From a virus: a stretch of DNA of 54,620 nucleotides. Where the stretch lies: positions 1 through 54,620 of IMG/VR virus record IMGVR_UViG_3300004369_000597; one strand, written 5' to 3'. Made by a program: the position numbers and the translations under genes. This document shows positions 1 to 40,131 of this stretch, piece after piece. The notes under the pieces are model-generated. The model saw only the letters and a list, made by a program, of their open reading frames with translations. It was not told the origin of the DNA and did not search any database. Every line of letters starts with the position of its first letter. The stretch's first letter is position 1.

Positions 1-358
1 CACCCTGTTTTCTAGCGGCTTTAGCAGGGGCGGCTGCTTGAGGCTGTGGCTGTTCGGGTTCAGCAACGGGTTGTTCGGGTTCAGCAACGGGTTGTTCGGG
101 TGGAGGAGTTTCTTTTTCTTCGGGTTTGCCGGGCTGGGGAGGAGCAATCAGGCCTGCGGCTTTAGCATTTTCTAATGCAGAAACAGCATCACTAACAAAA
201 TCTTTTACAAAGATGTCTTGTGCTAAAATAGTTGCGGCAGATTTACCACCACCAAATGCAGATTTGATTTTACTAGCGGCGGCGCCACCGATCATGTTTG
301 ACAGTCTTAACTCATCAATCTGCTCTGATTCTTTAATATAAATATCATCAATTTTCAT
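1..358 (-). CDS. Conserved phage protein with Pro/Glu-rich tail (3' end outside window)
   Basis: The reading frame opens at ATG 358 and runs off the left edge without a stop, so the protein is incomplete here. The N-terminal part (about residues 1-70) has a Gly/Ala-rich stretch (MIGGAAASKIKSAFGGG) and a predicted helix. After it comes a low-complexity Pro/Glu/Gln linker with tandem AEPEQPV repeats. I do not recognise a domain. The shape (short ordered head, extended Pro-rich tail) is common in small virion or scaffold-associated proteins of marine T4-like phages, but that role is inference. The next gene upstream on the same strand begins its stop codon at 361, so the two are almost contiguous. 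Confidence 0.7.
   Translation of the reverse strand, partial: MKIDDIYIKESEQIDELRLSNMIGGAAASKIKSAFGGGKSAATILAQDIFVKDFVSDAVSALENAKAAGLIAPPQPGKPEEKETPPPEQPVAEPEQPVAEPEQPQPQAAAPAKAARKQG
51..101. repeat. 21-bp tandem repeat inside a coding region
   Basis: A 21-bp unit occurs at 51-71 and 72-92, followed by a partial third copy at 93-101. It keeps frame and encodes the repeated AEPEQPV segment of the minus-strand gene, so copy number could change by slippage without breaking the frame. Confidence 0.85.
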
Positions 359-360
359 TT

Positions 361-603
361 TTAAACCTGTGTCTTTTTAATACTTTTTGAAAAGCGAGAT
401 TTGTCTCTGCCCCTAATGGCACTTATCAATTTCTTTTCCAGCATTTCAGCCTGACCTTCTTCAAAGTTTTTTTCAATAAACTCAATTAGATTAATAGCAC
501 TAGTGATAATATTGTTGCCACGAGATTCCACAATATGTGGAACATCACGGTTATTACCGATTAGTTCTAGTTCTTCCAATAGGCTTCTTGTTTTCTTTTG
601 CAT
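361..603 (-). CDS. Hypothetical 80-aa helical protein
   Basis: Small, charged and probably all-helical protein starting at ATG 603; no recognised domain. It has its own upstream late-type box at 624-630 and a purine-rich ribosome-binding stretch (AAAAGGGAAG) before the start. It follows the helicase gene in the direction of transcription and is separated from it by about 50 bp. Function unknown. Confidence 0.65.
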   Translation of the reverse strand: MQKKTRSLLEELELIGNNRDVPHIVESRGNNIITSAINLIEFIEKNFEEGQAEMLEKKLISAIRGRDKSRFSKSIKKTQV

Positions 604-623
604 AAGTCCACTTCCCTTTTATA

Positions 624-630
624 TATTTAT
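624..630 (-). promoter_or_regulatory. T4-late-like promoter box (ATAAATA)
   Basis: On the minus strand the sequence GCATAAATATATAAAAGGG lies 21 nt upstream of the start at 603. It matches the TATAAATA-type -10 box of T4-like late promoters. The same core recurs before many other genes in this window. Confidence 0.5.
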
Positions 631-652
631 GCTATTAGGGTTTATTTTAAAT

Positions 653-2062
653 TTACTTTTTAAGGCTGTTTAACAACGATTTCAATTTAGTACTTTGTAC
701 GTCTGCGTCTACTCGTTTATTTATCGGCTCTACTTGTTCGTGGACTGCTTGATCGACTGCCCCAACTTGGCTAGTTGTCTTAAACTTATCCATAATTTGC
801 TGTGCTGAGGGCTGTGCATTTTGTGACACATTAGATGTGCCAGGGTCTGAAATTCTTAATGTTTCTATATCAAATGCTAGTTCTACTTTCTGTCCTACAC
901 CAGAACTGCTACGTGTTTTCATTAACTGAATTTGATATTGTCCGCGTTCTCTCATACTACGTGACGTAAAGATACCAAATACGTTATCTGCTGTGTTGAT
1001 TTTTGAAATACCACCTGAGATATGACTATGATCAAATTCGATTTCTTCTACTGCACTTCTGTTTAACTGTGAGGCTGTAACAAATATCAAATCAAACTCT
1101 TTTGCTAAGTTACGTAATTCTTCTGATACATACTTGTCTTTAACAAACAAGTCACTAGGACTTACTTTGGCACTTACTGGCATCAACAAGTCCAAATAGT
1201 CAACACACATAAAATCTATCTTCATGCCTGTTTGTATTTGCAATTCTTTAATATATGCTCTAAGATCGTTTACTGTACTTTGTGCTGGCATATACTTGAT
1301 TCTGAACTTGCCAGATGTTTTTTGTTTCATTTTAACTTTCATTTCAACGTTATCTAAGTCTTTAAACACTTCTTTTGCTTTAGTGTCAGTCAACATAGAA
1401 TCGATACGCATGGCTGATAGTTCTTCACTCAATTCAAGTGTAATGTACACTCCTGATAAGCCCTGTAACAACCAATTAACTGAAAGATTCTGCATGAACA
1501 AAGACTTACCTGAACCAGAACCACCTGCAAAAATTTGCAGTTCTCCTTTGTTGAAACCCCCATAAAGTTTTTGATCTAGTACGGGCCAGCCCGTAGAGTT
1601 TTGACCATTGCTTGTTTTAAGATGCATCAATCTAGCACGTGGATCAGCAAAGTAATCGATACCCATATCACGTTGTAATGAAATTTGAACCGCATCTTTA
1701 ATTAATTTTTCAACAGGATTATAGTCACCCTTTTCTAATAAGTCTGCTGACTTCATAATTGCACGTTCTAATTCTTGTCTACGTGTAAATGCTTCAAATT
1801 CAGATAAGAACCATTCGTAATGTTCATCTTGTAAATCATCCACTGGTTCAATTTCAACACTAGTTGTTGCTTTAATTTGTGTTGGGTCTGGAAGTAATTT
1901 ATATTTGCTAGAATGTTCCAGCATAAACTCTGCTACAGGTCTTAGTTTGCGATCAAAGTTTTCTGGATTAAAGATATTTGTGATTCGTACAAAAAGTTCT
2001 GCGTTTGTAACCATCATACGCAAGAATAATTCTTGCACATCAGCATTGAATTCTTTTAGCAA
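653..2062 (-). CDS. 41: Replicative DNA helicase, DnaB-like (T4 gp41 type)
   Basis: 469 residues, matching the size of T4-type gp41. A Walker A motif GGSGSGKS is at residues 180-187 and a Walker B-like run ending in CVDYLDLL lies near residue 285; both belong to a RecA-fold DnaB-family helicase. The N-terminal third is helical, as expected for the hexamerisation/primase-contact region. The protein should unwind DNA 5'-3' at the phage fork together with the primase encoded just upstream. The start is TTG at 2062, supported by GAGG 7 nt before it; no ATG is nearby until residue 16. It overlaps the primase gene by 23 bp, suggesting translational coupling. Confidence 0.93.
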   Translation of the reverse strand: MLKEFNADVQELFLRMMVTNAELFVRITNIFNPENFDRKLRPVAEFMLEHSSKYKLLPDPTQIKATTSVEIEPVDDLQDEHYEWFLSEFEAFTRRQELERAIMKSADLLEKGDYNPVEKLIKDAVQISLQRDMGIDYFADPRARLMHLKTSNGQNSTGWPVLDQKLYGGFNKGELQIFAGGSGSGKSLFMQNLSVNWLLQGLSGVYITLELSEELSAMRIDSMLTDTKAKEVFKDLDNVEMKVKMKQKTSGKFRIKYMPAQSTVNDLRAYIKELQIQTGMKIDFMCVDYLDLLMPVSAKVSPSDLFVKDKYVSEELRNLAKEFDLIFVTASQLNRSAVEEIEFDHSHISGGISKINTADNVFGIFTSRSMRERGQYQIQLMKTRSSSGVGQKVELAFDIETLRISDPGTSNVSQNAQPSAQQIMDKFKTTSQVGAVDQAVHEQVEPINKRVDADVQSTKLKSLLNSLKK

Positions 2063-3029
2063 TTTTTTTCCTCATCATTTCGATTTTAATTTTGTTGTTT
2101 GTTGCAGACTCTATAATACTTAGTAGAGTTGGCAATCTTCCATATTTAATTAGTGCATCGTTTGCATCTTTAACGCCAGTTCCCCAATTAGGTAAACTAA
2201 GTTCAAATCCCAATTCGATTGCTCTATCAATTATATCCAAGCCTGTCTTGTCCTGATCAGGAACAACAATTATACGCTTATCTAATTTTCTAATTATACT
2301 TGCTTGTTCGTCACTGATTGTATTATGACACAATGCTAATCCACTTAACGAGATAGCATCAAATATACCTTCAAATACTAAACAAATTTCCCATTCAGGT
2401 TTTTGCAAATCAGTACCAAACACATATCCTTTTTGTTGCTGATTAATATACTTAGGTTGCCTGTTATCAATATATCTGGACGTGTGACCCACTATCTTAT
2501 TTTCATATGTGTAGGGAATAATCAAACGTTGCGCCTCTCTCCCTTCAGCATCAGGTGTCACTAAAAACGGATATGCAGAATGACTAAGTCCTCTCTTTTT
2601 AAGATACGTTATAAATGGTTGATGTTTTTTATCGCCCACATAAATTAGATTGCCTTCAGGTCTAGGGCGTTCTTTAAACTTAACAACAGGGTCTTTTTTC
2701 TTTTTAGTTATAACTGAGTCTAGCAAATCTCTATGTTGTATTGACTGTAAGTTCCACTTATTAATTTGCTGATCGTCTACACCACACCAAGATAAAAAGT
2801 TACGTGTCTTTTTACTGATGCTTTTACCTAATGTAAATCCACATTTAAAGCCGCAGTTAAAACAATGATAAGACCAATTATCACCGTCGGTTCTTACACC
2901 TCCCCGTTGACGTTTGTCTGCATTGTGTCCATTATGATGACAACACGGTGCGTTGAATGAATACCATCCACTTTGTGTTAGTTTCTTTTTACCCGGTGCA
3001 ACCGTAAGTATATCAATCATACTTCGCAT
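2040..3029 (-). CDS. 61: DNA primase (T4 gp61 / DnaG type)
   Basis: 329 residues. The N-terminal zinc-binding domain is visible as CCHH at residues 29-32 followed by C56, C59 and C63 (CFNCGFKC). A TOPRIM domain follows, with the glutamate in VFEGIFDAIS and the acidic pair in VVPDQDKTG. This is the arrangement of DnaG/gp61 primases, which make RNA primers for lagging-strand synthesis on the gp41 helicase. The gene directly precedes and overlaps gp41. The start could be ATG 3029 or the internal ATG 3020; no strong ribosome-binding site distinguishes them. Confidence 0.93.
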   Translation of the reverse strand: MRSMIDILTVAPGKKKLTQSGWYSFNAPCCHHNGHNADKRQRGGVRTDGDNWSYHCFNCGFKCGFTLGKSISKKTRNFLSWCGVDDQQINKWNLQSIQHRDLLDSVITKKKKDPVVKFKERPRPEGNLIYVGDKKHQPFITYLKKRGLSHSAYPFLVTPDAEGREAQRLIIPYTYENKIVGHTSRYIDNRQPKYINQQQKGYVFGTDLQKPEWEICLVFEGIFDAISLSGLALCHNTISDEQASIIRKLDKRIIVVPDQDKTGLDIIDRAIELGFELSLPNWGTGVKDANDALIKYGRLPTLLSIIESATNNKIKIEMMRKKIAKRIQC

Positions 3030-3070
3030 TATACATAAAAATTAAAGAAAATACAACAGAAACGGTAAAC

Positions 3071-3862
3071 TTATCTTGCCAAAACGTTACCAATATTGCC
3101 CACATTAGATTCAAACTTTAGTTTGACAAACGGGTGATATCCTTCAAGGGTGTATCCAATTGTGCTAGTTTCAACAGACCCTGTGTTAGCATTACCATAC
3201 TGATATGATACAATATCATAGTATTCAGAGTCAACTAAAGTGGATCCCTGAATAGTCATGTTGCCTACGTAGTTTGAATAATGAGTTTGAATTGTTAAAA
3301 CTGGATTATTTTCTGTATTAATCACACTACTAAAAAACGTGACTGCTTCAGAGTTTGCATTTGCATTTGCATTAGGAAAGACTTGATCTGTAGGAATTGT
3401 AACTGCTTGGCTTGGTACGAATGAAGGTAGAATAGAGTTTACAATATTAAGATCGCCACGTGCTCCTGCTTTTGCATCTACGAATACTGGCAAATTTTGA
3501 TTGCCGCTTGGGTATTCTAAAGAGTACGAGCAAAACTGTGCAGGAATGTTTTCTATTTCTGCGGCAGTTGTATTGAGTTCAAAGATGCCGGTTGCTAGAT
3601 AGATAGGATCAAGTGCTTTTCTAAACAACACTGCGGTTCCATCTGAGTTTAAAATTCTAAACGATATTTGTCCAGTAAGACCGGTAAAGTCAACAGGCTT
3701 TTGTTCTTGGTTTAAGAATTGAAACTGTAGTTTGTTATCAACACCTTTGTTAAGTGTTAGTGGCTTTGAATAAACTGGCATATATTTCCTCGGACTTGTT
3801 CCATCAAGGACAACAACGATTTGTCTAATTGTATACGTGTAAACTGATGTAGTGTAAGACAC
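3071..3862 (-). CDS. Probable virion/fibre-associated protein
   Basis: 263 residues, rich in beta-strand-type sequence and Asn/Thr/Ser, with an Asn-Ala repeat (NANANAN) in the middle. The N-terminal 130 residues read like the immunoglobulin-like fold of baseplate or fibre adaptor proteins (BppU-like pattern: fibre-attached ligand domains with FTGLTGQISFRIL-type strands). No catalytic motif is evident. The start is GTG at 3862 with GGAG about 10 nt upstream. An ATAAATACT late-type box precedes it, which fits a structural protein. The assignment is by composition and context, so it is moderate. Confidence 0.5.
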   Translation of the reverse strand: MSYTTSVYTYTIRQIVVVLDGTSPRKYMPVYSKPLTLNKGVDNKLQFQFLNQEQKPVDFTGLTGQISFRILNSDGTAVLFRKALDPIYLATGIFELNTTAAEIENIPAQFCSYSLEYPSGNQNLPVFVDAKAGARGDLNIVNSILPSFVPSQAVTIPTDQVFPNANANANSEAVTFFSSVINTENNPVLTIQTHYSNYVGNMTIQGSTLVDSEYYDIVSYQYGNANTGSVETSTIGYTLEGYHPFVKLKFESNVGNIGNVLAR

Positions 3863-3883
3863 AAATCTTTAACTCCTAATAAG

Positions 3884-3892
3884 AGTATTTAT
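3884..3892 (-). promoter_or_regulatory. T4-late-like promoter box (ATAAATACT)
   Basis: Minus-strand GATAAATACTC about 22 nt upstream of the GTG start at 3862, with AGGAG between box and start. It has the extended ATAAATACT form seen at several other late-type sites here. Confidence 0.55.
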
Positions 3893-3947
3893 CAGTTAGG
3901 TATATAATAATATTTTACCAATTTTTTTCCGATGTTAAATACAGATA

Positions 3948-5720: not shown

Positions 5721-6259
5721 TGTAAGCCTGCCACCATTAATTTCTTGTATGCTCTTTGCACAACTATTGCTTGATGTTCAGCATCTTCTACAGCCTTATG
5801 AGACGTCCTGTGAGCGCCGTCTTTTAGCGATACGTTGCACATGTCATAAATTGTACGTGTGTCTCTAATAGTGTAAAAAGGCCACGGAATACGCATGTCT
5901 AATTGCCTAAAGGCGTTTTCAGCCACAACAATATCAAAACCAGCACCATTACTCCAAACTGCTCTGCGGTTCCAACAGAATTTATAAAGTTTATCCATAG
6001 TATCTTTAAACGATATTCTATCTCTGTCGCCCATTGCTTCATCGATTGCTTCTTCACTTTGTTCTCCCCACCAGCGTAATGTGTCTGGATTAATTGTTCT
6101 GTTGTGTTGCTCTGTTTGATCTTCAATAGTAGGTCGCAGTTCCAAACGTTCTACTACCCCATCACCTTTGGGGTCGAAACGAACTGCACCGATTGTTAGG
6201 ATAACTGAGTCTGGATCCGTGCCCAACGTTTCCATATCAATCATTACGTCATTTGCCAT
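5717..6259 (-). CDS. dexA: 3'-5' exonuclease, DnaQ/RNase-T fold (DexA / Rv2179c-like)
   Basis: 180 residues with the DEDD-type exonuclease motifs: Exo I as MIDMETLG at the N-terminus, Exo II around WSNGAGFDIV, and Exo III as HKAVEDAEHQ. The layout matches the Rv2179c-like 3'-5' exoribonuclease domain, which includes T4 DexA. It would degrade single-stranded DNA or RNA from the 3' end, perhaps in host DNA breakdown or repair. It overlaps the radical SAM gene upstream by 11 bp and the DnaE-like gene downstream by 4 bp. The symbol is by similarity to T4. Confidence 0.82.
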   Translation of the reverse strand: MANDVMIDMETLGTDPDSVILTIGAVRFDPKGDGVVERLELRPTIEDQTEQHNRTINPDTLRWWGEQSEEAIDEAMGDRDRISFKDTMDKLYKFCWNRRAVWSNGAGFDIVVAENAFRQLDMRIPWPFYTIRDTRTIYDMCNVSLKDGAHRTSHKAVEDAEHQAIVVQRAYKKLMVAGLQ

Positions 6260-8060
6260 AATTTTCTGTATCTAATAGTTTTAAGTTTTCTATTATATCG
6301 GATTTGACATAATTAATCAATAGTATTTCGTAATTATGGGTAACCTTTAAGGGGGCAAATGAGTGTAGTATCCTTGGATTGAATAAAACAGCAGATCCAA
6401 ATGGAACATGAATTTGAATGTGATCATTAATAAAATGACTGTCTACTAATCCGTCTGCTAAATCTGATAATGGCCAATCTTTCTCGTGGCTACTAGGTAC
6501 AAGACAAAATTCTGCACCTTTTTGATTAAGCGGCACAACAATACTTACACCCATAACATCTTGTTTATAATCTGATGCAAGTAAATTATTATATTCTGGT
6601 AATGTGTGGGGGAAAGCAATCTCTGTTTTCCATTCTGTGTTTTCATTTACTGTTATCATTTTTCTATTATAGAAAACCGAATTACGTAAATGTTGTTTAA
6701 CTTCTGCTTCGATTTCTGTATTGGTATATCCCATCTGATCAATGATTTCATATCCAATACTGTGACTTGTTAAATTCATTTTTGTTTTTAGTTGTTGCAA
6801 TTCTTCATATACATCAGGTATAAAATCTTTCATAGCACGTTTTCTAAACTTGTCTGAGTTATCAATAAAGTGCAAACAATGATCTATAAGTTGAGGATAG
6901 ACTTCTTGTTCTTCTTGTAGCCAAGTTTTAAGTAATCCAAACTGATCTTTCCACTTATCGTCTACTCCGTGAAAATAATCAATGTCTGTCATTTCACTTA
7001 ATATTTTTTCTTCTAGTTTTTGTAATTTTACTAGAGCCTTGTATCTTATTTTTTTTGATAAGACATTAGTTTTAAAGTGTGCAGGAGACCATACTCTATT
7101 AAGAAATACGCCATAGATATTATATCGATTACCATGTTCTTTGTATTTTTTAGTAAGTTCCCACCACCATTCTAATAAATCGTGTGAATGTAAAATGCTT
7201 AATAAACTTGCCGTGTGGCTTAGTGATACGGTGTACCTATCGGGATACAGTATAGTATACTCAAACATTTGCGTAACGTTTTCTTCTATCTTTTTCCACT
7301 TAAACGGATATCTGATATATTCATTTACTATGCCATATCCGTCAATAGAAACCGAAAGATGTACCTCTTTAAACTCTTGCCAAACGTCTGTCAGGTCTTG
7401 TGTTAAACCAGTTAAGTTAGTTACATAACTAATGCTTATATTTTTAGCCCGATCTAATTTAATTAATTCTTTTAAGAAACGAATGCCTTCTTCATGTATC
7501 GTTGGTTCCCCTCCCACAAACGCAATGCTTTCAACGTTGGGATATGATTGTATTAGTTCATTAACTTTGTCGTCTTCAATATAAATTTTAAGACCTTTTA
7601 AATTGTAGATATTATTTTGTAATCCACGCTTTGTATTTTTTGGTAAGTCTTTAGTTGATTGTTGATAAATGTAGTTCCATTCATCTTCCCATAATGTAGA
7701 AGCCGCCGGTCCACATGTCATGCACTTTGAATTGCATTTGTTACTGAATGTTAGGTCGAGGTATTTTACATTTGCTGGATCTACCGTTGTATCCATTGGG
7801 ATATCATTACCCAACCCTTGGTTCCAAATGGTACGCATAGAAGCGTAACCGTTTTCTTCTGATTCCTTACAGTTTACACAGCCTTTGGGCCATTTGTCAT
7901 TCTTAAGTAACTCTCTAACTTTAATTAAATGTGGATCATTGAGGTGACTTCCGTTGGTACTTTTTTCGTCATCAAACTTACCTTGAAAGTTACAACAGGG
8001 TTTATACCCTGTTTGATCAATTGATGCTGAACCAAATGCTAATGAACAATAGATTGCCAT
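6249..8060 (-). CDS. Radical SAM protein with N-terminal SPASM/Twitch region, fused to a degenerate PhyH-like dioxygenase domain
   Basis: 603 residues, two modules. The N-terminal part (about 1-440) has auxiliary cysteines C5, C22, C23, C61 and C64 (SPASM/Twitch-like, placed before the core), then the radical SAM CxxxCxxC motif at C109, C113, C116 and a glycine-rich AFVGGEPT motif. It should cleave S-adenosylmethionine at a [4Fe-4S] cluster; substrate unknown. The C-terminal 150 residues align with the neighbouring 2OG-Fe(II) dioxygenase (YNNL, HEKDW, LHSFAPLK in the same order). However, the HVD iron motif of the neighbour is EIA here, so this half is probably non-catalytic. It lies directly against the intact dioxygenase gene (stop and start adjacent). 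Confidence 0.85.
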   Translation of the reverse strand: MAIYCSLAFGSASIDQTGYKPCCNFQGKFDDEKSTNGSHLNDPHLIKVRELLKNDKWPKGCVNCKESEENGYASMRTIWNQGLGNDIPMDTTVDPANVKYLDLTFSNKCNSKCMTCGPAASTLWEDEWNYIYQQSTKDLPKNTKRGLQNNIYNLKGLKIYIEDDKVNELIQSYPNVESIAFVGGEPTIHEEGIRFLKELIKLDRAKNISISYVTNLTGLTQDLTDVWQEFKEVHLSVSIDGYGIVNEYIRYPFKWKKIEENVTQMFEYTILYPDRYTVSLSHTASLLSILHSHDLLEWWWELTKKYKEHGNRYNIYGVFLNRVWSPAHFKTNVLSKKIRYKALVKLQKLEEKILSEMTDIDYFHGVDDKWKDQFGLLKTWLQEEQEVYPQLIDHCLHFIDNSDKFRKRAMKDFIPDVYEELQQLKTKMNLTSHSIGYEIIDQMGYTNTEIEAEVKQHLRNSVFYNRKMITVNENTEWKTEIAFPHTLPEYNNLLASDYKQDVMGVSIVVPLNQKGAEFCLVPSSHEKDWPLSDLADGLVDSHFINDHIQIHVPFGSAVLFNPRILHSFAPLKVTHNYEILLINYVKSDIIENLKLLDTENYGK

Positions 8061-8774
8061 TTACTTACCGTTACTCGACCAAACATTGTCTGTGCTTCTA
8101 ATGTCTTTAGCAATGTCTGGTCTTAAATAATTCATTAGTAAGATTGATCGTTTTTTAGATAGTTTTAAAGGCATTGTAGAATGCATCAATCTAGTATTAT
8201 AAAACAACATTGAACCAACTGGCATGTCTAGTTGAATTGCATTCTCCATAAACTCATTATCATAAAAACCTTCGTAACATTCTTGTATTGGCCAATCTTT
8301 TTTGTGACTGTCAAGTAACAAACCTGTTGCTCCTGTATCTTTATCCAAATCTTCTAATGGTATAATAACTTGGATACCCATTAATTCGTTGTTACCTTCT
8401 GCAACTAGATTATTGTATTTTTTAAATCGGTGTGGTGTATCTACGTGGGGACTTACCCAACGAGACGGTCCATTGATAGTAACAATATCACTTGCATAGA
8501 ATTCTGCGTCAGGTAAATATTGTTGAAGAATCGGTGCAATAATTTTATCTATTTCTTTTACTTCGTGCCAATCATCTGTGAGTTGTGACCACCATACGGC
8601 AATGCCAAATAACTTTTTACATGCATCGCCTTCAGCATATTCTTTTTTGTGTGTAGATGCTCTTACAGGATACAGCATATCTTTTTTACTGTTGATAGAA
8701 TTGATAAAATGCATTGGTACAATATCAGTAACTTGATCGTAACCTCTGCCGTTGTGAGTTAGCGTGTCATTCAT
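8061..8774 (-). CDS. 2-oxoglutarate/Fe(II) dioxygenase, phytanoyl-CoA hydroxylase-like
   Basis: 237 residues. The iron-binding facial triad is visible: H110-V-D112 and the distal H198 (RLMHST), with R209 placed to bind 2-oxoglutarate. The order and spacing fit PhyH-type or related double-stranded beta-helix oxygenases. It would hydroxylate an unknown substrate using O2 and 2-oxoglutarate. It is transcribed directly before the radical SAM fusion, whose C-terminal domain is its degenerate paralogue, so the two probably act on the same substrate (inference). Such oxygenases are common in marine T4-like phages. Confidence 0.82.
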   Translation of the reverse strand: MNDTLTHNGRGYDQVTDIVPMHFINSINSKKDMLYPVRASTHKKEYAEGDACKKLFGIAVWWSQLTDDWHEVKEIDKIIAPILQQYLPDAEFYASDIVTINGPSRWVSPHVDTPHRFKKYNNLVAEGNNELMGIQVIIPLEDLDKDTGATGLLLDSHKKDWPIQECYEGFYDNEFMENAIQLDMPVGSMLFYNTRLMHSTMPLKLSKKRSILLMNYLRPDIAKDIRSTDNVWSSNGK

Positions 8775-11131: not shown

Positions 11132-12586
11132 TTAGTAGTTTAATTTTTCTATCACAAAGGGATAGTTGGCTTCTCTATAAAAAGCCTTGCGTTGCGTCAA
11201 GTGTCTCTTTGCAAAACGACAAGAACTAGTGATATCCCAAATTTGAACAAAGTCTTTATCTTCTGCTTTGCGAATTCCACGACCAATAGACTGGATGACA
11301 CGAACAAAAGACTTACCAGGCTCAATAAGTATAAGGTTAAAAATACGAGGAATATTAATACCCACACTAGCAACACCATAGGTAGCAACAAGTACTTTTC
11401 CATCAGCCGTTGCAACTTCATCATATTCTTCTTTGCGTTCATTTACTTTGGTGCTCCCTGATATAAAGACAGCATCTTTTATGCGTTTAGTAATTTCATT
11501 ACCTGCATTGATTCTGTCTACTAGGACAAGAGTGTTACCAGAGTCTTTTATTGTATCAATCAAATCGCAAATTTTGTCTAAGCGATTTTCATCTGTCAAT
11601 AAATGTTTCAACTCTGCTTGGTAGTTTTGAAACTCTTGTCCATCTTGCAACTGCACAACATTTACGTGACAGTTAGCAAGTACTCCTTTGTCTTGTAGTT
11701 CGCTGGCTGATAACTTATTAGTTACTCCACCTAAACTTACTAACAAAGCAATACGTTCATATTCTGCTTTAGGAATCGTTCCAGTTAGTCCCCATCTAAT
11801 GGGTACACGTGACATTACTCCTGTTAATAGTTGCTTGAGTGCATCTGCTTTTGCCATATGAACTTCATCAACCATGACACAAACAACATCTTCAATAAAT
11901 TCGTGTATGGTGCAATCAGCACTACCTGCTTTAGTATTCTTCAATAAAATATTTAACGATTGCCAAGTACAAATTGTATGTTGCTTATTATACTCTTTGC
12001 GATCACCAAAATAAACACCAACATCTAGTCCTAAATTTTTGTAGTCTACTTCTGTTTGTGTGACTAGTGACTTGTTTGGTACAATAACAATTGATCTACC
12101 GTATGATTCTATGCTTGCTGACAATGCGGCAGTCATAATAGTCTTGCCAGCGCCGGTTGCTACTTCTTGTATAGACTGCGGGTTCTCTAAAAATCCGTTA
12201 ATAACATCAACTTGATAGTCTCTTAACTTGATAGGTTGCCCTTCGTGTGTATGTCCTTTTGGCCATTTAACGTGAGCAAATGTATCTGTGTCTACTTTAT
12301 TAAACACAAAGGTCGTTGAGTAGTCTCTGAGGTCTTCTAGTTCGATATCATAGTGTAGTTCTTCTAAGATAGGAATGATATCTTCTAATAGATTGATGTA
12401 GGTAGAACCTGCTAATGAAAAATAACTGACCTTTCCGTTCCATCTACCAAGTTTAACACTTGGCATATACCTTGCACCAGGAATTTCATATTCAAATTTT
12501 TTCATGCAGGCTCTACGTGCATCAAGTTCAAGCCCTTCGATTTTTAAATTTACCTCATCTTTAATGATGAGTCTAGCATTTCGCAT
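11132..12586 (-). CDS. uvsW: UvsW RNA-DNA and DNA helicase
   Basis: 484 residues, the expected size for T4-type UvsW. Superfamily 2 motifs are in order: ATGAGKT (143-149, Walker A), VMVDEVHMAKAD (DExH box), GLTGTIP (motif III) and QSIGRGIRK (motif VI). The first 90 residues form the UvsW N-terminal substrate-binding region (GRWNGKVSYF). UvsW unwinds R-loops and branched DNA and helps switch from origin- to recombination-dependent replication. It follows the TonB receptor gene by only 3 nt. Confidence 0.95.
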   Translation of the reverse strand: MRNARLIIKDEVNLKIEGLELDARRACMKKFEYEIPGARYMPSVKLGRWNGKVSYFSLAGSTYINLLEDIIPILEELHYDIELEDLRDYSTTFVFNKVDTDTFAHVKWPKGHTHEGQPIKLRDYQVDVINGFLENPQSIQEVATGAGKTIMTAALSASIESYGRSIVIVPNKSLVTQTEVDYKNLGLDVGVYFGDRKEYNKQHTICTWQSLNILLKNTKAGSADCTIHEFIEDVVCVMVDEVHMAKADALKQLLTGVMSRVPIRWGLTGTIPKAEYERIALLVSLGGVTNKLSASELQDKGVLANCHVNVVQLQDGQEFQNYQAELKHLLTDENRLDKICDLIDTIKDSGNTLVLVDRINAGNEITKRIKDAVFISGSTKVNERKEEYDEVATADGKVLVATYGVASVGINIPRIFNLILIEPGKSFVRVIQSIGRGIRKAEDKDFVQIWDITSSCRFAKRHLTQRKAFYREANYPFVIEKLNY

Positions 12587-12589
12587 AAA

Positions 12590-14185
12590 TTATTCTGGCC
12601 TATATTGTAGTGTCAAAAATATTTGTCTACCACCAGCTCCATAGCCAGGGATAATTTCAATTTCTTTATCTAGTATATCTCTAAACGTAACAGAAAGCAA
12701 ATAGTTGTTGCCCACTGACTTTTGCACACTTAAGTCAAATGAATTAACATTGTCTAATTCTTCAGTATCGTAAGGACTTTGCTTACGATCAAACATACCC
12801 TGATATGTAAGTTTTGCGGTGTAATCTTTTATAATATATGTACCCGATATAACAAACATGTACTTTGCAACACGTGGTTGTTCGGTGTCTGTCCAACCAA
12901 GATGTGTGTGAATCCACGCATTAGGGCTTAGTGTAATCATGTCTGAGTAACGAAAACCCTGCGTGTTATACTTACCTATGTTTACGTATTGATTCTCGTT
13001 AAAATCGTAATCTATGCCTTCGCTAAAACGATAATGAAAGTAAGACAGTTTGTTCCAACCTATTTCGTACCCAATTGATTCTTCGGGTTCTAGTTTAGGA
13101 TTAGGATTAGTCCAAGCGTCACCTCTAAGTTGGTATAGATTTGGATTGCGAAATGACGTACCCAAATTAACGAACAAGCCGTTATTCTCATACCCCACTC
13201 TATATACAAATGCATCTTGTGTTACACGGGAACCAACTTCAAGTCCAAACAATGTTTTTAGTACACCATATATGGCGTAGTTGTCTTCTGTGTCACTATC
13301 GTATTCTTCTTGTTCTGCGGTTACACCAATGATCGCATCACCCATAGTTAAAACAAGATTTGTTCTGTAGTCTGCATACCATCTGTTGGCTTCACTAACC
13401 CAAAAGTTATCAGAGTCAGCAAAATAGTCAGCATCGTTCCAAGTATGGCCCACAGTCCAATTTTCGCTACGTACACTTACTGCCCCGCGTTGACCTTCTT
13501 GCAAGCAATCGTTAGTGTAATCGTAACTGCTGTTCCAGCATTGATCAAAGTCATATTCATAATCGTTAATCATTACGTTTGCAGTGTACGAACCAAAATC
13601 AATGTGTGCCCTTGCAGTTACATTTTTGTAATCGTCTTCTTCATTGTTATCTGTGCGTACACTATCATTAGTTGCAGAAAGGTACGTAAAGTTAAATAAA
13701 TTCTCTAACGAATGGCTAACAAATTGATGATCAGAACCTGCTCTAACTGTAGAACCGGGTTGGATATTGTCATTAATAAAAATAGTACCTGCCAAACTGC
13801 CTGATCCATAAAGGACCGAATTAGGTCCATGTACAATTTTTGCAGTTTCATTTCCTGTTGCTAAGTCGTGCCCAAAATCATACCAACCTGCGCCTGCATC
13901 GTTAGCAGGAACACCATTACGAAATACAGTAGTGTGAATAGGCTGAGTGCCTCGTTCACTGTATCCTGCAAATCCTCCAAACCCACCTGCTACTGTAGTT
14001 GCTGGCATTAAACTTTCTATCAGTGTAACGTCAGTTACTGGATCACTTGTTACGGTGTGTTCTGTTGAACCTGTAACAACAATTGTTTCGATTTCTTCTG
14101 CATGTACTTCATTAAGTAGAAATGCATAAAAAATCATTACGATTGCAAAACCTAATATTTCGATTTTGCCATTTTTAATACTCAT
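12590..14185 (-). CDS. TonB-dependent outer-membrane receptor (phage-borne)
   Basis: 531 residues. Order: signal peptide (about 1-29, hydrophobic GFAIVMIFYAFLL, cleavage after VHA); a TonB-box-like segment IETIVVTG; a plug domain (about 40-150) with the classical KIVHGPNSVLYGSGSLAGTI motif; then a beta-barrel of alternating aromatic strands (for example WNKLSYFHYRFSEGIDY, RNPNLYQLRG) ending LTLQYRPE. Such receptors import siderophores, vitamin B12 or glycans using TonB energy. The barrel of about 380 residues is short for the family (whole receptors usually 600-900 residues). The gene sits inside a phage operon: ATGA overlap with the gene upstream, 3 nt from uvsW. The C-terminus lacks the usual final Phe. 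Substrate unknown. Confidence 0.88.
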   Translation of the reverse strand: MSIKNGKIEILGFAIVMIFYAFLLNEVHAEEIETIVVTGSTEHTVTSDPVTDVTLIESLMPATTVAGGFGGFAGYSERGTQPIHTTVFRNGVPANDAGAGWYDFGHDLATGNETAKIVHGPNSVLYGSGSLAGTIFINDNIQPGSTVRAGSDHQFVSHSLENLFNFTYLSATNDSVRTDNNEEDDYKNVTARAHIDFGSYTANVMINDYEYDFDQCWNSSYDYTNDCLQEGQRGAVSVRSENWTVGHTWNDADYFADSDNFWVSEANRWYADYRTNLVLTMGDAIIGVTAEQEEYDSDTEDNYAIYGVLKTLFGLEVGSRVTQDAFVYRVGYENNGLFVNLGTSFRNPNLYQLRGDAWTNPNPKLEPEESIGYEIGWNKLSYFHYRFSEGIDYDFNENQYVNIGKYNTQGFRYSDMITLSPNAWIHTHLGWTDTEQPRVAKYMFVISGTYIIKDYTAKLTYQGMFDRKQSPYDTEELDNVNSFDLSVQKSVGNNYLLSVTFRDILDKEIEIIPGYGAGGRQIFLTLQYRPE

Positions 14186-15228
14186 AATTTTACCTCTCTT
14201 TGGTTGATGATTTTTATAATTTTACCAGCGCCAGTTACTGGTAATTCATAATAATCGGTTAAACTAATTATTACTGGCATGGACTTTGGTTGTTCGGATG
14301 AAGCAAAAAAATCATTGTATGTATGCCATATAAATTTTTGCATGTCGTATTTATTGAGTATTCGTTCAATGTCTTTATTTGTGTTTTGATCAAACGTGGT
14401 ACTCTTAGGCAAAATCACATCAGTAATGCCTAATTCTTTCATCCACTTCACTGCATCATCAAAGTTACTAATGTTTACTTGCGTTTTAAACTCGGATGCA
14501 AATTTTAGTTTTGGATCATCTGCATAAATGTCTGGCGAAATTGTAATGGCTAACCTTGACAATTTGTACAATGTCATTGGACTGTTATCCATTACAATGT
14601 TATTTTCTTTTATTTTTTCTGCTAATACTTCATTGAGTGCCGCAACTTGATACCCGTCTCCTACTTTGACATAGGTTGGATCCCAATACTTAGTTGACGA
14701 TTTGATTTTGTTTAGTTTATCTACAATAGTTTTTACCTTGCCGTGATACACCGTTTCAAAAAACTGCGGCAAAGTATTATACGCAAGTTTTAAATTAAAC
14801 GTATTGAATTTTGCCTCGTACCTTTTCTTTGCCTTTTGCCATTGCCATTGATTATGAGGTATATTTCTAAATTGATTAATAAAGTCCTTTTTAAAAGGAA
14901 CCTTAATAGTCAAACAATTATCTACACTGTCATAATCAACATTGGCATTTGTGTACTGAGGTAAACTTTCTATGATATCACACTTCCAAGGTAACCTTTT
15001 AAGATCACCCTTATCAAAGCCTGCTTTAGCAAATTGTCGTTGATACTTACTAATCAGTTTATCAAATAGTGCGGCTTGGTTAGATGTGATTTCTTGTTTG
15101 TCGTGGGTTAAGTATTGCAGATTAGCAATGAATTTATAGTCATAGTGGCTTAGACTTATGTTGGGTTCTGCCAACCCAGTCTGAGTCGATAACATAAAAT
15201 AAATGACTTGTTCTTTGCTAGTAAACAT
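14182..15228 (-). CDS. Conserved phage protein with HARP-like/UvsW-N-terminal-like segment
   Basis: About 348 residues from ATG 15228 (a GTG at 15234 is the alternative). Residues around 105-150 (FKKDFINQFRNIPHNQWQWQ and onwards) resemble the pattern of HARP domains of SMARCAL1-type annealing helicases and related UvsW N-termini: an Ile-Pro step, a Trp-rich stretch, then a conserved helix. No helicase motifs are present. It could bind branched DNA as an accessory factor; this is a weak, pattern-level inference. It ends with an ATGA overlap into the TonB receptor gene. Confidence 0.6.
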   Translation of the reverse strand: MFTSKEQVIYFMLSTQTGLAEPNISLSHYDYKFIANLQYLTHDKQEITSNQAALFDKLISKYQRQFAKAGFDKGDLKRLPWKCDIIESLPQYTNANVDYDSVDNCLTIKVPFKKDFINQFRNIPHNQWQWQKAKKRYEAKFNTFNLKLAYNTLPQFFETVYHGKVKTIVDKLNKIKSSTKYWDPTYVKVGDGYQVAALNEVLAEKIKENNIVMDNSPMTLYKLSRLAITISPDIYADDPKLKFASEFKTQVNISNFDDAVKWMKELGITDVILPKSTTFDQNTNKDIERILNKYDMQKFIWHTYNDFFASSEQPKSMPVIISLTDYYELPVTGAGKIIKIINQREVKL

Positions 15229-15274
15229 ATTCACTATTATATAGAACCTTAACTATTAAATCAATTAAAACGGT

Positions 15275-15300
15275 AAAAAAAGGGCGACCGAAGCCGCCCC
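15275..15300 (-). terminator. Intrinsic terminator after the AAA+ gene
   Basis: On the minus strand GGGCGGC-TTCG-GTCGCCC forms a 7-bp stem (one G-U pair) with a UUCG loop, followed directly by seven T. It lies about 22 bp beyond the stop of the AAA+ gene, in the gap before the 348-aa gene. Confidence 0.88.
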
Positions 15301-16396: not shown

Positions 16397-16425
16397 ATTA
16401 TAATGGATTTTAGAACCAATGTCAA
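16397..16425 (-). promoter_or_regulatory. Sigma70-type early promoter (TTGACA-17-TATAAT)
   Basis: Minus strand: TTGACA at 16425-16420, exact consensus, 17 bp, TATAAT at 16402-16397, exact consensus. An A-rich run (AAAAAAGG) abuts the -35. It would drive the AAA+ gene starting at 16357 with a leader of about 33 nt. Confidence 0.9.
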
Positions 16426-16877: not shown

Positions 16878-16923
16878 CTAATAAAATCAATAACTTACGA
16901 TTCTAATAGAATCAATGACTTAG
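16878..16923 (-). repeat. Imperfect direct repeat upstream of an early promoter
   Basis: Two related copies on the minus strand: AAGTCATTGATTCTATTAG and AAGTTATTGATTTTATTAG. A third copy of the core (TAAGTCATTGATT) lies at 43361-43377 upstream of another promoter of the same family. It fills most of the 164-bp gap between the 112-aa gene and the copper monooxygenase genes. An operator or UP-element role is possible but untested. Confidence 0.45.
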
Positions 16924-16934
16924 AAATGTTAGTA

Positions 16935-18200
16935 TTATTCTACATTCTTCCAAGTAAATGCACCGAAGAACATTTCGTCTTCAGACATCTGGCCCCACGG
17001 TACTTCTCTTGCGGGGTCTGGATTCTTTGGATTGTCTGTACTATTATCAAACGCACCTTCTACAAATAATCGAGTACCTGCAGGAATAAACTTAGGATCT
17101 TTCCATGTGTATGAAAGTTGCCAAGCATAGTCATACCTAGGAATGTCTATTAGTTCTTCCCTTGTACCGTCAGCATAGATTGCAGTAGCTCGCATACTCT
17201 TGCCACGGAAATGCATGTGTGGTAAGAAAGTGTGTAGTCTAATATCATTCTTTAGTGTAATCTCTGCTGTCTGTACAAAGTTAGGATCAAAGGGTGGAAT
17301 CGGCGTCCAAGTGTTAGGGAAGATACAGGCACAATCACCTGCCATTCTTTCTTCTGGTACTACGCCTTCATCGTGGAAGTATAGTCCGATTCTTGCTCTG
17401 TCAGTTCTTGCTGTACCATCAGGCGTATAGTGTAGTTGTAGATTCACGATTGAACCTGCTCGCAACAAACCACCTGTGTTCTCGTCATAGTAATCAGGAT
17501 CACCGCCAGGAACATATGCACTAATAGTAGCATAGTCCATATCGCCTTGTCCTTCGCCCTGTGCGCCTAACAAGTTACCGTTACGCTCACCTGGAATATT
17601 TACTGTGTTCAGCATGTGATGCATAACAGTAGGCTCGCTAGGCAAGAACTGTGATCCACGCAACCACTTGTCTTCCGTGAGACCAAGATCAACACTTGTG
17701 TATCTGTATGGTATCGCATTAGGACCCATTGTGCCAAATGCTGGAATCTCTTGTGGTGGTACTTCGATAATCATATCAGGCTCACCATGTACCCACTCTG
17801 AAGTAGAGTAAGTTGTTTCTGTCAGAGGATCAACATCTCCCTCAACAGGTGCGCCTGCGTCAATCCACTCTACAATAGTATCAATCTCTCTATTGCTTAG
17901 AGTTCTGTGATTGATAATTGTACCTGCGTACTTACGATCAATTTGACCTGGAGGCATACGCTTCTCAACGATAGCCTCTTTGATTGCAGGTGCAAAGCCT
18001 TGTAACATTTGATAGTTAGTCATTGCCCATGGAGCAATACCACCTTCTCTGTGACACGATTGGCATTGCTCTACAAAAATAGGCGCAACATCTCTCGCAT
18101 AGTCAATCTCATCTGCTTTTGCTGTAATAGCTACAGCACACAACAATGCTGTCCACACTGCTACTGTACTAAGCCAAAACATTTTCTTAATGCTATTCAT
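16935..18200 (-). CDS. Exported cytochrome c / copper type II (PHM-like) monooxygenase, copy 2
   Basis: 421 residues: signal peptide (about 1-29), a c-type heme domain with CQSCH at 46-50 and a likely axial Met in RMPPG (M82), then a two-part copper type II ascorbate-dependent monooxygenase fold. All ligand positions of peptidylglycine hydroxylating monooxygenase can be matched: H194-H195 and H257 for CuH; H328 and H330 (PHMH) and M410 for CuM. The protein should act in the periplasm and hydroxylate an unknown substrate, with the heme feeding electrons (inference). Its start overlaps the stop of the paralogue by one base (TAATG). Such fusions are familiar from marine gammaproteobacteria, not phages. 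Confidence 0.85.
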   Translation of the reverse strand: MNSIKKMFWLSTVAVWTALLCAVAITAKADEIDYARDVAPIFVEQCQSCHREGGIAPWAMTNYQMLQGFAPAIKEAIVEKRMPPGQIDRKYAGTIINHRTLSNREIDTIVEWIDAGAPVEGDVDPLTETTYSTSEWVHGEPDMIIEVPPQEIPAFGTMGPNAIPYRYTSVDLGLTEDKWLRGSQFLPSEPTVMHHMLNTVNIPGERNGNLLGAQGEGQGDMDYATISAYVPGGDPDYYDENTGGLLRAGSIVNLQLHYTPDGTARTDRARIGLYFHDEGVVPEERMAGDCACIFPNTWTPIPPFDPNFVQTAEITLKNDIRLHTFLPHMHFRGKSMRATAIYADGTREELIDIPRYDYAWQLSYTWKDPKFIPAGTRLFVEGAFDNSTDNPKNPDPAREVPWGQMSEDEMFFGAFTWKNVE

Positions 18201-19474
18201 TAGTCATCTCCCATAATACTTCTTTGTGCTTTCAATTGTTCAAACCCTTCATCATCCAAATGTGTAAATGCTAACCAAGCGTGAGTCATCTCATCGCCTG
18301 TTCTTGAACCACCCATTACCCACATATCAGGATCAGGGTTGTTGGGATTGTCAGCAGTGTTGTCATACCATTGCTTGAGAATAATAACCGCACCTGTTGG
18401 CAGTAATGGTGCTACTTCAGGCGAATACAAGTGGCTATGATGCCATGTTGCACTCCATTTAGAAATTTGACTTATTGCTTCTGTACGACCAGTTTCAGGA
18501 TAAAAGATTTCCAAACTTGCCGCATTCATACGCAAATGACCATGTGGTTGGAAGCTGTCCAGTCTAACAGGATGGTCGAAACTGTGAAACCCCTGGGTCA
18601 TCGCATATCCATTGGGTGGGATAGCTAAATCGTCCTGATTGCCAAGGCGATACAAACTCAAGTCTTGTTTGTATTTTAATTGTTTGCTTTCCTCTTCGGT
18701 GTACAACCAAAGACCAATCTCTACCACATTGTCTTTGATAACAGAACCTGGGGCCATTGCTCCAAGACCACCCGGGAACATGTGGATATCCCAACTGATT
18801 TGTGCGTTTGCTGGAAGTGTGCGACAAACTCCTTCTGGTACAATCTCTCCCCACTTTCCCATAGCGTACTCAGTGAGCATGCCTTCACGCCCTTCTGCGG
18901 TAATAATAGTAGAGTTGGCGTGATGTACTACTGACTTAGCTTCGCCACGTGGCTTTACTTGTACTGCTTTGATACATCTGTCTTCGCTGAGACCGCTTGG
19001 TACTAGATGCTTGTGCCATAGATCATTACCATTTGCAGGAATGTCGATGGCTACACTTGGAATGATTGCGTCTGGTGCACCGAAGTCGCCTTCAAAGTTC
19101 CACGCCTCTGGATCTCTCATCTTTGGCGCTTGTACTACTGTGTCAGGATCGCCGTAAATAGAACCGCTGTTGACCCATGCTACTACTGTGTCAATGTCTT
19201 CTTGTGCTAGTCGCCAATCACCCTGTAGGTCTTGTATGCCTATACCGTGATCGTAAGCATAAGGGGGCATCTCTCTACTTGCTACTTTCATAGCAATCAG
19301 TGGTGCCCATGGACGCACTTGCTCGTAAGTTTCAAAACTCATTGGACCGATACCACCTGCACGGTGACATACTACACAATTGTTGTTGATTATATCTGCT
19401 ACTTCGGATGTATATGTTTGAGAATATACAATAGCAGGGAAAAGTAATACTACAAACGCAAAAAGTTTTTTCAT
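18200..19474 (-). CDS. Exported cytochrome c / copper type II (PHM-like) monooxygenase, copy 1
   Basis: 424 residues: signal peptide (about 1-19, VYSQ cleavage region), heme c motif CVVCH at 33-37 with axial Met candidate M69, then the copper monooxygenase region with H184-H185, H231, H311-G-H313 and M386 in the places of the six copper ligands. The catalytic set is therefore complete. Overall identity to copy 2 is limited but the order of motifs is the same, so they are diverged paralogues that may form a heteromer or act on related substrates (inference). A TTAAATA box and a GAGGAAA ribosome-binding site precede the ATG. The truncated gene copy at 19552-19722 lies immediately upstream. Confidence 0.85.
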   Translation of the reverse strand: MKKLFAFVVLLFPAIVYSQTYTSEVADIINNNCVVCHRAGGIGPMSFETYEQVRPWAPLIAMKVASREMPPYAYDHGIGIQDLQGDWRLAQEDIDTVVAWVNSGSIYGDPDTVVQAPKMRDPEAWNFEGDFGAPDAIIPSVAIDIPANGNDLWHKHLVPSGLSEDRCIKAVQVKPRGEAKSVVHHANSTIITAEGREGMLTEYAMGKWGEIVPEGVCRTLPANAQISWDIHMFPGGLGAMAPGSVIKDNVVEIGLWLYTEEESKQLKYKQDLSLYRLGNQDDLAIPPNGYAMTQGFHSFDHPVRLDSFQPHGHLRMNAASLEIFYPETGRTEAISQISKWSATWHHSHLYSPEVAPLLPTGAVIILKQWYDNTADNPNNPDPDMWVMGGSRTGDEMTHAWLAFTHLDDEGFEQLKAQRSIMGDD

Positions 19475-19495
19475 TTTGTTTTCCTCTAGTACTAT

Positions 19496-19502
19496 TATTT
19501 AA
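19496..19502 (-). promoter_or_regulatory. Late-like box (TTAAATA) before the monooxygenase pair
   Basis: Minus-strand CACTTAAATAATAG lies about 21 nt upstream of ATG 19474. It resembles the late-type boxes elsewhere and would make the two monooxygenase genes a late operon. The surrounding gap (19475-19551) shows nothing else clear. Confidence 0.4.
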
Positions 19503-19551
19503 GTGCTAGATAACGGTTCAAAATGAAAAAACTACGGGTTGTTACAATTTA

Positions 19552-19722
19552 TTACAATTGGTTAAATCTATGTTCGGTAATGCCGGGTAAAGCGGCAATT
19601 TGTTTTTCAACAACGCCCTTTACCCTGACATCAGATTTAGATGAAATTAGTTCTGTTTCGTAATGACTGATAAAATCAGGAATTACTGAAAGATCATGTG
19701 TGATGCGTGTGTACCAATTCAT
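19552..19722 (-). pseudogene. Truncated paralogue of the 152-aa gene at 20870-21328
   Basis: A 56-codon frame beginning MNWYTRITHDLSVIPDF and ending RFNQL then TAA. It matches residues 1-56 of the 152-aa gene at 45 of 56 positions, while the DNA differs mostly at third codon positions. It stops exactly where the parent continues, so it looks like the remnant of a homologous gene cut at its 3' side, or a short functional paralogue. It starts in an ATGA overlap with the end of the radical SAM gene. Together with the full copy it flanks that gene. Confidence 0.8.
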
Positions 19723-20870
19723 AAATTATTCAAATTCAAGTACTTACGTATGATCTGATCAGCGAACGGCCAAAGTTCTGCAAATGTGCTGGGATGGTCT
19801 TCATCTAGCAATATGACTTCTTTGGTAAAATCTTTCATAACACGAATATTGTGGTACTCTAACCGATTACTAATTTCCTTTTTTAATGCTTCTAATGTTA
19901 TTGCTGTTTTTTGATTAATATAATCTTTATATTTGGTTTGGACTATATCTATTTGTTCTATTGCCTTTTCTTTTATTTCTTTTGGATAGTTCATTAAGTC
20001 AAGGTGGGGAGGATGATCTAAGGTAGATATAAAAGAAGTATTATTGTTTGGATTAGGATCAATACTATACAACCAATCAAACACATCTACTAATGTAAAT
20101 GCACTCATAAGTGTGTAAGTAAAATGTACGCCAATCGGAGATGAAATAGATTCCTTTAATTTTTTGTAATTGGATTCAGTTAAAGACCAAGTAGCGTTGC
20201 GTCTAACATATTCAAAATGATCTCCGATGTTTTCAAAACTAACAAGCCAAGCAACTCTGTGGTCTAGTTCAACTAACTTTTTATAAACAGGTAAATCTTC
20301 AATATTTTTGACAGACAAATTAGTAACAATACCTACTCTAGTTTGATCGTCTACTAATTCTAGCAAATCAATATTTTCTCGTAATAGTAAAGGTTCACCA
20401 CCTAACATTTGAATATCATGTAATCGGGTAGTGTTGTCTTTAATATGCTGTAAAACTTCGTCTTGCCATTGAGTTTCAGAAACTTTAATATCTATACCTT
20501 TCCAAGATGCGTATGCACTACTCCATTCAGGATTGCAATAATTACATCTTAACTGACAAGTATTGTGCCATCTTATGTCTACTGATTTGGGTACAAACTT
20601 ATCTTCTTGTAGTTCATCATCAATTTCGTCATACAAATCTTTAAGGCTTTTGCCAGTGCGTTGATACTGGTCATGACAACTGGTGCAGTAATCAGAATAA
20701 CCTTTAGTAAGCATGTCCTCTCTAAGTTTTGCTAAAGGACCTGCTTTTAATAATTCTTGTAATGAGTTTTTATTAAGATTGCCAAGTGAGTTGCCACCAC
20801 AGCATACTCTTAAGTCACCGTCTGGATTTACGAATAAGCCTTCCCAAGGCGCTCGGCATTTAAATTCCAT
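19719..20870 (-). CDS. Radical SAM protein with N-terminal SPASM/Twitch region
   Basis: 383 residues from ATG 20870, which overlaps the upstream stop as TAATG; a longer frame to 20933 lacks support. N-terminal auxiliary cysteines are C5, C23, C24, C62 and C65, then the radical SAM CxxxCxxC at C105, C109, C112 (CQLRCNYC), then MLGGEPLLL. The cysteine layout is nearly the same as in the first module of the 603-aa protein at 6249-8060. It would generate a 5'-deoxyadenosyl radical to modify an unknown peptide or small molecule. It is flanked by full and truncated copies of another gene, which suggests insertion. Confidence 0.85.
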   Translation of the reverse strand: MEFKCRAPWEGLFVNPDGDLRVCCGGNSLGNLNKNSLQELLKAGPLAKLREDMLTKGYSDYCTSCHDQYQRTGKSLKDLYDEIDDELQEDKFVPKSVDIRWHNTCQLRCNYCNPEWSSAYASWKGIDIKVSETQWQDEVLQHIKDNTTRLHDIQMLGGEPLLLRENIDLLELVDDQTRVGIVTNLSVKNIEDLPVYKKLVELDHRVAWLVSFENIGDHFEYVRRNATWSLTESNYKKLKESISSPIGVHFTYTLMSAFTLVDVFDWLYSIDPNPNNNTSFISTLDHPPHLDLMNYPKEIKEKAIEQIDIVQTKYKDYINQKTAITLEALKKEISNRLEYHNIRVMKDFTKEVILLDEDHPSTFAELWPFADQIIRKYLNLNNL

Positions 20871-39851: not shown

Positions 39852-40131
39852 CTTTAACCAACTCGTAAATTGTTTCTGCTTGTTCTAATAGGTTCTTTAG
39901 CGTAGCAGAGTTTTCTGATGCCTGCAAAATATCTCTAAACTTGTGCCAGCGTTCATAAAAGGCTTTTTCTTTTAAATGGTCGGGGTCTTCAAATACCTTC
40001 ATGCGTTTGGATAAATGCTCTCCTAATGGCCTTGCGTACACTGTTTTACCCCCGTCAGGTGATTCATAGATAAACTTATCGTTAGGGCCCGCGTTAGCAG
40101 GCCTATGAGGTTCTAAATGTTTGTGTGTCAT
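39844..40131 (-). CDS. Hypothetical 95-aa protein
   Basis: Contains FIYESPDGGKTVYARPLGE and helical segments with LKNLLEQAETIYELV. I recall similar small proteins from marine phages; function unknown. Starts in an ATGA overlap with the VWA-protein gene, so it is translationally coupled to it. Confidence 0.65.
   Translation of the reverse strand: MTHKHLEPHRPANAGPNDKFIYESPDGGKTVYARPLGEHLSKRMKVFEDPDHLKEKAFYERWHKFRDILQASENSATLKNLLEQAETIYELVKDD

Follow-up and report, generated by a model that had tools for sequence, protein, structure and literature searches.

Phage biologists know TonB-dependent receptors chiefly as entry doors. What, then, is a complete gene for such a receptor doing in a phage genome, and whom does it serve? 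The question arises from a 54,620-base IMG/VR virus record (hereafter the window, meaning the whole stretch of DNA analyzed), which also encodes UvsX, a gp32-like single-strand binding protein, a large terminase, a primase and a DnaB-type helicase. An initial annotation had described a TonB-dependent receptor with a shortened barrel, locked into a phage operon. Our analysis indicates that the protein is very probably a genuine TonB-dependent transporter and, with high confidence, a real phage-encoded receptor of the BtuB type. The gene, its parts and its neighbors are arranged as follows:

11132-12586 (-): uvsW helicase gene, directly downstream of the receptor (PHROG_16, E 1e-78)
12590-14185 (-): gene for the BtuB-like TonB-dependent receptor, 531 aa (open frame, Plug match, PDB profile match, 22-strand model, fold comparison)
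12593-13756 (-): predicted 22-strand β-barrel, residues 144-531 (DSSP on the AlphaFold2 model)
13784-14062 (-): plug domain, Pfam PF07715, residues 42-134 (present in 30/30 relatives)
13865-13888 (-): plug motif GWYDFGHD, residues 100-107 (30-row alignment, columns 99-106 invariant)
14072-14092 (-): TonB box, residues 32-38, IETIVVT (consensus IEEIVVV; columns of the 30-row alignment)
14099-14185 (-): signal peptide, residues 1-29, recognized by eye
14182-15234 (-): upstream ORF with no assigned function, whose homologue overlaps uvsW directly in receptor-less relatives
15281-15300 (-): terminator-like hairpin with a UUCG loop, closing an AAA-ATPase gene (consensus scan)

The signal peptide, TonB box and plug motif named in the initial annotation were all borne out. 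By inspection, the N-terminus MSIKNGKIEILGFAIVMIFYAFLLNEVHA, followed by EE, combines a positively charged n-region, a hydrophobic core and an A-x-A-like cleavage site. Behind it, the window protein reads EIETIVVT, and the TonB-box columns I31, E32, E33 and V36 are invariant or near-invariant in an alignment of 30 sequences. A profile search for the plug domain, suggested earlier as a check, matched PF07715 to residues 42-134 of the window protein (E 1.4e-7; 32.4 bits against a gathering score of 23.9) and to all 30 aligned relatives at E 0.001 or better, while five of the eight residues of GWYDFGHD are conserved at 98% or above among 99 distinct sequences. The curated barrel family PF00593 matched four of the 30 members (best 1.2e-13) and did not match the window protein. 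As a separate observation, 75 receptor loci carry a leader, KNFH[ILV]NFSP[LF]Y, ahead of the signal-peptide core (for example, L008 4043-4140 and L024 7986-8085), which is found in no other ORF there and is reminiscent of autotransporter extended signal peptides; the leader of the window receptor is shorter.

The start of the gene and the end of the upstream ORF overlap in ATGA, and exactly 3 nt separate the end of the gene from uvsW. With the hairpin at 15281-15300 closing the AAA-ATPase gene, the 14182-15234 ORF, the receptor and uvsW look like a single predicted transcription unit, the terminator-like hairpins being calls of a consensus scan whose counts in the window are no higher than in shuffled sequence. 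A perfect TTGACA-17-TATAAT promoter predicted by consensus scan (16397-16425, minus strand) precedes the AAA ATPase gene. T4-type late promoters (TATAAATA) are fewer in the window than expected by chance, and none lies near the receptor gene.

Does the protein form a closed barrel? An AlphaFold2 model built from the 30-sequence alignment (mean pLDDT 82.5, pTM 0.81) contains a barrel of 22 strands over 388 residues, in which alternate connections are periplasmic turns of 2-4 residues and the others are short outer loops. Since the loops are short and no strand is missing, the predicted barrel is compact, not truncated. The earlier description of a shortened barrel of about 380 residues was thus right about length but not in implying fewer than 22 strands, and the proposed structural check, a strand count and a test of the fit of plug and barrel, came out in favor of a receptor: the model superposes on BtuB over 492 residues. 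In a model of a receptor from a second phage group (L064, clade B; pLDDT 79.1), two loops are more fragmented, but the alignment to BtuB is equally good.

Fold and sequence comparisons agreed on the nearest known family. Foldseek returned the E. coli BtuB:TonB complex as the best of 350,542 chains (E 3.2e-19), and VIA-align placed BtuB first (Z 36.1, rmsd 2.4 Å over the superposed residues), with B12 transporters filling rows 1-15 and heme, siderophore, zinc and copper receptors following at about Z 31 and lower. The L064 model gave the same ranking (BtuB Z 37.2), so that in two independent models the BtuB crystal structures from E. coli and Bacteroides all outrank every heme, iron, zinc or copper receptor. 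A profile of the 30 phage sequences, run against all PDB sequences, found BtuB chains at E 3e-20 and nothing else below 0.01. Among NCBIfam families, TIGR01779 (TonB-B12) is best for the window protein (4.3e-22) and matches 28 of the 30 members; the next non-B12 family is TonB-hemin TIGR01785 (1.6e-7). The TIGR01779 score of 78.4 bits lies far below the BtuB equivalog threshold (TIGR01779 / NF007926; curated cut-off 599.7), and the protein is therefore BtuB-like rather than filed as a BtuB equivalog.

The full-length bacterial relatives on contigs L098 and L101 adjoin genes for a periplasmic binding protein, a permease and an ATPase of BtuF-C-D type, as read from their sequences. Close to the BtuB-like locus of L098, a Methylococcaceae MAG, we also noticed by eye a Cas9-like CDS (2..3025) followed by a Cas1-like one (2985..3905). 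A motif scan of GTDB contigs found no close bacterial relative of the phage family, and a tree separates the phage proteins from three bacterial BtuB-like proteins by a long branch with full support; together these results indicate that the phage family has been separate for a long time. In the reading that we favor, the phage receptor either derives from the BtuB branch or has converged on it.

Such receptors are normally bacterial, and the initial annotation had itself raised the prospect of a misassembled bacterial fragment. Scans with the window protein and with the 30-sequence profile identified 110 and 245 viral contigs, respectively, that encode relatives, and 80 of the 110, with receptors 35-99% identical, were taken for comparison. 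The search for T4-like contigs carrying a receptor beside uvsW, also proposed at the outset, yielded 126 loci in which both genes could be located, and in every one the receptor comes first and uvsW next on the same strand, usually 3-17 nt apart (six negative distances are artefacts of choosing the longest uvsW frame). Near-identical receptor copies occur in the independent contigs L002-L004. Contigs L178, L183, L189 and L201 lack the receptor; there, the 14182-ORF homologue overlaps the uvsW start directly by ATGA, a clean empty site. Conserved synteny, independent copies and the empty site, alongside the missing close relative in the motif scan of GTDB contigs, lead us to reject misassembly or contamination, which we regard as practically inconceivable. 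The claim that the receptor is locked into a phage operon stands on the exact overlap and gap, on synteny in more than 100 loci, on the empty site and on purifying selection (below). One relative in a different T4-like context (L081, 7992-9482; 35% identity) precedes a gp32-like gene instead of uvsW.

The phages themselves appear to be large, T4-like and distantly related to jumbo phages. The terminase and UvsW of the window are nearest to those of jumbo phages, at 47-54% identity (Sinorhizobium Phosso, 469 kb; Agrobacterium Atu_ph07, 490 kb; the PA5oct group, 287 kb), and the order single-strand binding protein, UvsX, UvsW, primase, DnaB is preserved in Pseudomonas phage Paride; the window is therefore probably a piece of a larger genome. 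The genomes of Phosso, Atu_ph07 and Paride contain no receptor anywhere, and a tblastn search found no receptor relative in GenBank phages, matching only two Salmonella bacterial contigs with btuB. The cytochrome genes of the window, as a clue to the host, were uninformative, with a best bacterial match of just 41% in a 274-genome sample.

Several other genes in the window deserve mention in their own right. Two tandem exported proteins with a CxxCH heme motif (16935-18200 and 18200-19474, minus strand) resemble by eye a fusion of cytochrome c with a copper monooxygenase-type domain, their cytochrome Pfam matches being weak and below cut-off. The 2.8-kb region of the pair (16922-19733) is missing in L003, where the sequence to either side is 97-99% identical, which makes it a recent gain or loss. 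Two radical SAM proteins (6249-8060 and 19719-20933, minus strand; NCBIfam 'twitch domain' NF033640, above cut-off) are encoded near a PhyH-type dioxygenase (8061-8774) and a second dioxygenase-like C-terminus seen by eye, and may possibly form a phage-carried modification pathway. Three minus-strand genes are of surface-sugar type: a NodU/NolO-like carbamoyltransferase (52677-54236), a nucleotide-sugar epimerase (36202-37197) and a DegT-type aminotransferase (35127-36257).

How, then, has the receptor evolved among these phages? In a tree of 78 UvsW proteins, receptor bearers form two well-supported groups, one of 11 rows that includes the window and a second of 26 rows, and phages that lack the receptor fall between them. 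Receptor presence, mapped as a label on this tree, requires two changes, a number as low as which was reached in none of 500 shuffles. Because the second group (clade B) had first been collected through the receptor, it was re-sampled through UvsW; the receptor is present in 62 of 76 decidable clade-B-like loci and absent from the other 14, and is thus common, not universal. Some receptor pairs are far closer than their UvsW neighbors (L059/L067: receptor 90% identical, dS 0.26, versus UvsW 76%, dS 1.40; L061/L075 similar), a pattern in the aligned genes that indicates that recombination has passed the receptor from phage to phage.

Patchy occurrence might suggest a decaying passenger with no present role, and the 14 clade-B-like loci that lack the gene fit this idea. 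None of the 80 relatives, however, carries an in-frame stop inside the match, dN/dS across 15 pairs is 0.09-0.29, indicating purifying selection on a gene that usually evolves faster than uvsW, and 53 receptor positions are at least 98% conserved among the 99 distinct sequences. Decay is therefore very improbable. The gene instead fits the description of an auxiliary metabolic gene, namely a transport gene of host type that is established in a phage genome and kept under purifying selection.

If the receptor is maintained, what does it bind? The outer loops corresponding to the ligand side of BtuB contain two conserved motifs:

13628-13648 (-): outer loop L2 motif N180-x-E182-x-D184-x-Y186, aligned with BtuB D193/D195
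13505-13561 (-): outer loop L3 motif Y209-x-Y211-D-[YF]-D214-x-C216 ... N225-D226-C227, aligned with BtuB D228-Y229-D230

All four named residues of L2, and Y209, Y211, D214, C216 and C227 of L3, are invariant in 99/99 distinct phage receptors, and the two cysteines probably form a disulfide. An unforced joint alignment places E182/D184 on D193/D195 of BtuB (QPD193RD195) and D214 on D230, and hhalign supports the L2 pairing; for D179 and D241 of BtuB, the alignment offers no sure equivalent. D193, D195 and D230 are taken here to be calcium ligands of BtuB. In BtuB, two calcium ions caged by five aspartates lie near the cobalamin pocket, and cobalamin sits on the plug apices beneath loops L2-L5, which are key for binding (PMC7360065).

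Given the likeness to BtuB, the ligand is probably a corrinoid, with heme or a metal chelate next most likely. It may be that BtuB is merely the nearest compact receptor and that the phage protein takes up something else, be it heme, a metal chelate, a siderophore or a small cofactor. The weaker second match to the hemin family TIGR01785, the histidine and aromatic residues invariant in the plug-apex motif GWYDFGHD and the compact, structurally close ZnuD, ShuA and OprC (Z 29-31) would all suit such a ligand. B12 transporters nevertheless top every sequence and fold ranking, and the invariant columns of L7 do not include the invariant histidine that a heme receptor of the two-histidine type needs, so that we consider a different ligand unlikely, if conceivable.

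Both the ligand and the benefit to the phage are inferred, the ligand with moderate confidence and the benefit with lower confidence. In the reading that we favor, the receptor would be translated together with the replication operon during infection, exported by Sec and inserted into the outer membrane by BAM. It would bind a scarce corrinoid (a B12-like cofactor) and deliver it to the periplasm through the TonB-ExbBD system of the host, from where host BtuFCD would take it inward. Uptake would thereby be raised where the cell's own synthesis fails or its receptors turn over, and B12-dependent pathways of the host, such as those that supply methionine and methyl groups, could be kept running for phage growth. 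The host would have to power the receptor, as none of 19 records examined contains a TonB_C gene. Of the functions proposed in the initial annotation, nutrient uptake is the favored one, ahead of receptor replacement and altered susceptibility to other phages, and the likeness to BtuB narrows it to probable corrinoid uptake.

Evidence for a B12 need of the phage itself was sought in the same records. Ribonucleotide reductase was found in 4/19, and the three read are class I NrdA/NrdB, which are B12-independent; none of the three is a B12-dependent class II enzyme, and a simple link between ribonucleotide reduction and B12 fails. Genes with B12-binding domains are not associated with the receptor (2/19 receptor-bearing records versus 1/25 in a second set that mixed receptor-bearing and receptor-less records). 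A cobalamin riboswitch upstream of btuB is common but not defining, and no Rfam match to one was present in the window or in eight related loci. An AAA ATPase (42169-43263) and a VWA protein (40128-41426) were considered as a CobS/CobT-like pair and dropped, because they had no NCBIfam match and the ATPase also occurs in receptor-less relatives. Class I reductases, no riboswitch and no association with B12 enzymes would place the benefit in host metabolism or in competition between phages.

Competition would give the receptor quite a different purpose. It could titrate TonB or BAM and so shut out BtuB- or TonB-dependent phages and colicins or, in a variant, a receptor with short, altered loops could supply B12 once the cell has lost its original one. 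Both BtuB and FhuA are well-known phage receptors, BtuB for instance for the Yersinia phage of PMC8624392, and phages do encode receptor blockers, as in the complex of FhuA with the superinfection exclusion lipoprotein Llp (PDB 8a60). The short outer loops of the model and the patchy, exchanged gene are likewise in keeping with competition. A blocker, in contrast, needs no ligand pocket, and the invariant ligand-side L2/L3 residues, the plug motif and the TonB box fit transport. We therefore regard the two forms of competition, taken together, as improbable, and lean towards uptake rather than exclusion as the source of the benefit. For the full account, a functional receptor powered by host TonB that imports corrinoid during infection, we put the chances at about even. 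A broader proposal is more speculative still: corrinoid uptake might be a near-core viral function in this widespread giant-phage lineage, with a phage-adapted B12 receptor translationally coupled to the replication genes, its alleles swapped, and B12 supply or door closure setting the success of infection.

A large group of uncultured giant phages with a complete BtuB-like receptor gene suggests viral control of a nutrient gate: a whole lineage brings its own outer-membrane receptor, intact over deep divergence. If B12 is imported, these phages, while infecting, act on a vitamin that is scarce and exchanged; if exclusion is the purpose, they follow a receptor-swap strategy. Full-text searches of open-access papers turned up no description of a BtuB-like receptor gene carried throughout a phage lineage.

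The earlier remark that carrying such a receptor is highly unusual for a phage holds insofar as cases are rare in the literature, but SusC-like ones had already been reported. A putative TonB receptor of SusC type is encoded by the megaphages Mar_Mega_1 and LR745206, and increased carbohydrate uptake has been suggested as its role (PMC9723777; 2021). These resemble the present case in being TonB-dependent receptors of very large aquatic phages with a suggested role as uptake boosters, but belong to another receptor branch and comprise two genomes, with one gene in a list. The BFVD match A0A8D9FQQ5, likewise annotated as SusC-type, is 805 aa long and, in the fold match, 11% identical. Pelagiphage Skadi-1 (OP131302) has a gene published as a 'TonB-dependent receptor domain protein' (PMC10504331), sharing its annotation words with the window receptor. 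At 148-149 codons (L331, 28891-29337), between capsid and tail-tube genes, it is far too short for a receptor, and the label is probably wrong. GWYDFGHD and the L2/L3 motifs offer annotators a clear family marker that separates true phage receptors from such wrong labels.

The Bacteroides B12 transporters (PDB 8blw, 8bmx and 8p98) are the next-best fold matches (Z 32-33), but share 14-17% identity with the phage receptor in the fold match, and in 8blw and 8bmx the transporter is bound to a surface lipoprotein. The closest comparison remains BtuB of E. coli and Salmonella. The phage receptor differs from it in being only about 20-24% identical and about 90 residues shorter, in not keeping the BtuB plug contacts residue by residue, in having its own GWYDFGHD plug motif and a conserved L3 cysteine pair, and in being phage-encoded beside uvsW, with no riboswitch match and a score below the curated BtuB cut-off. 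It shares with BtuB the 22-strand barrel, plug and TonB box and the top position by profile and fold, together with acidic L2/L3 loops at matching places and a C-terminal ...LDxExE..P.Y..GR region that aligns with LFDKDYETVYGYQTAGREY.
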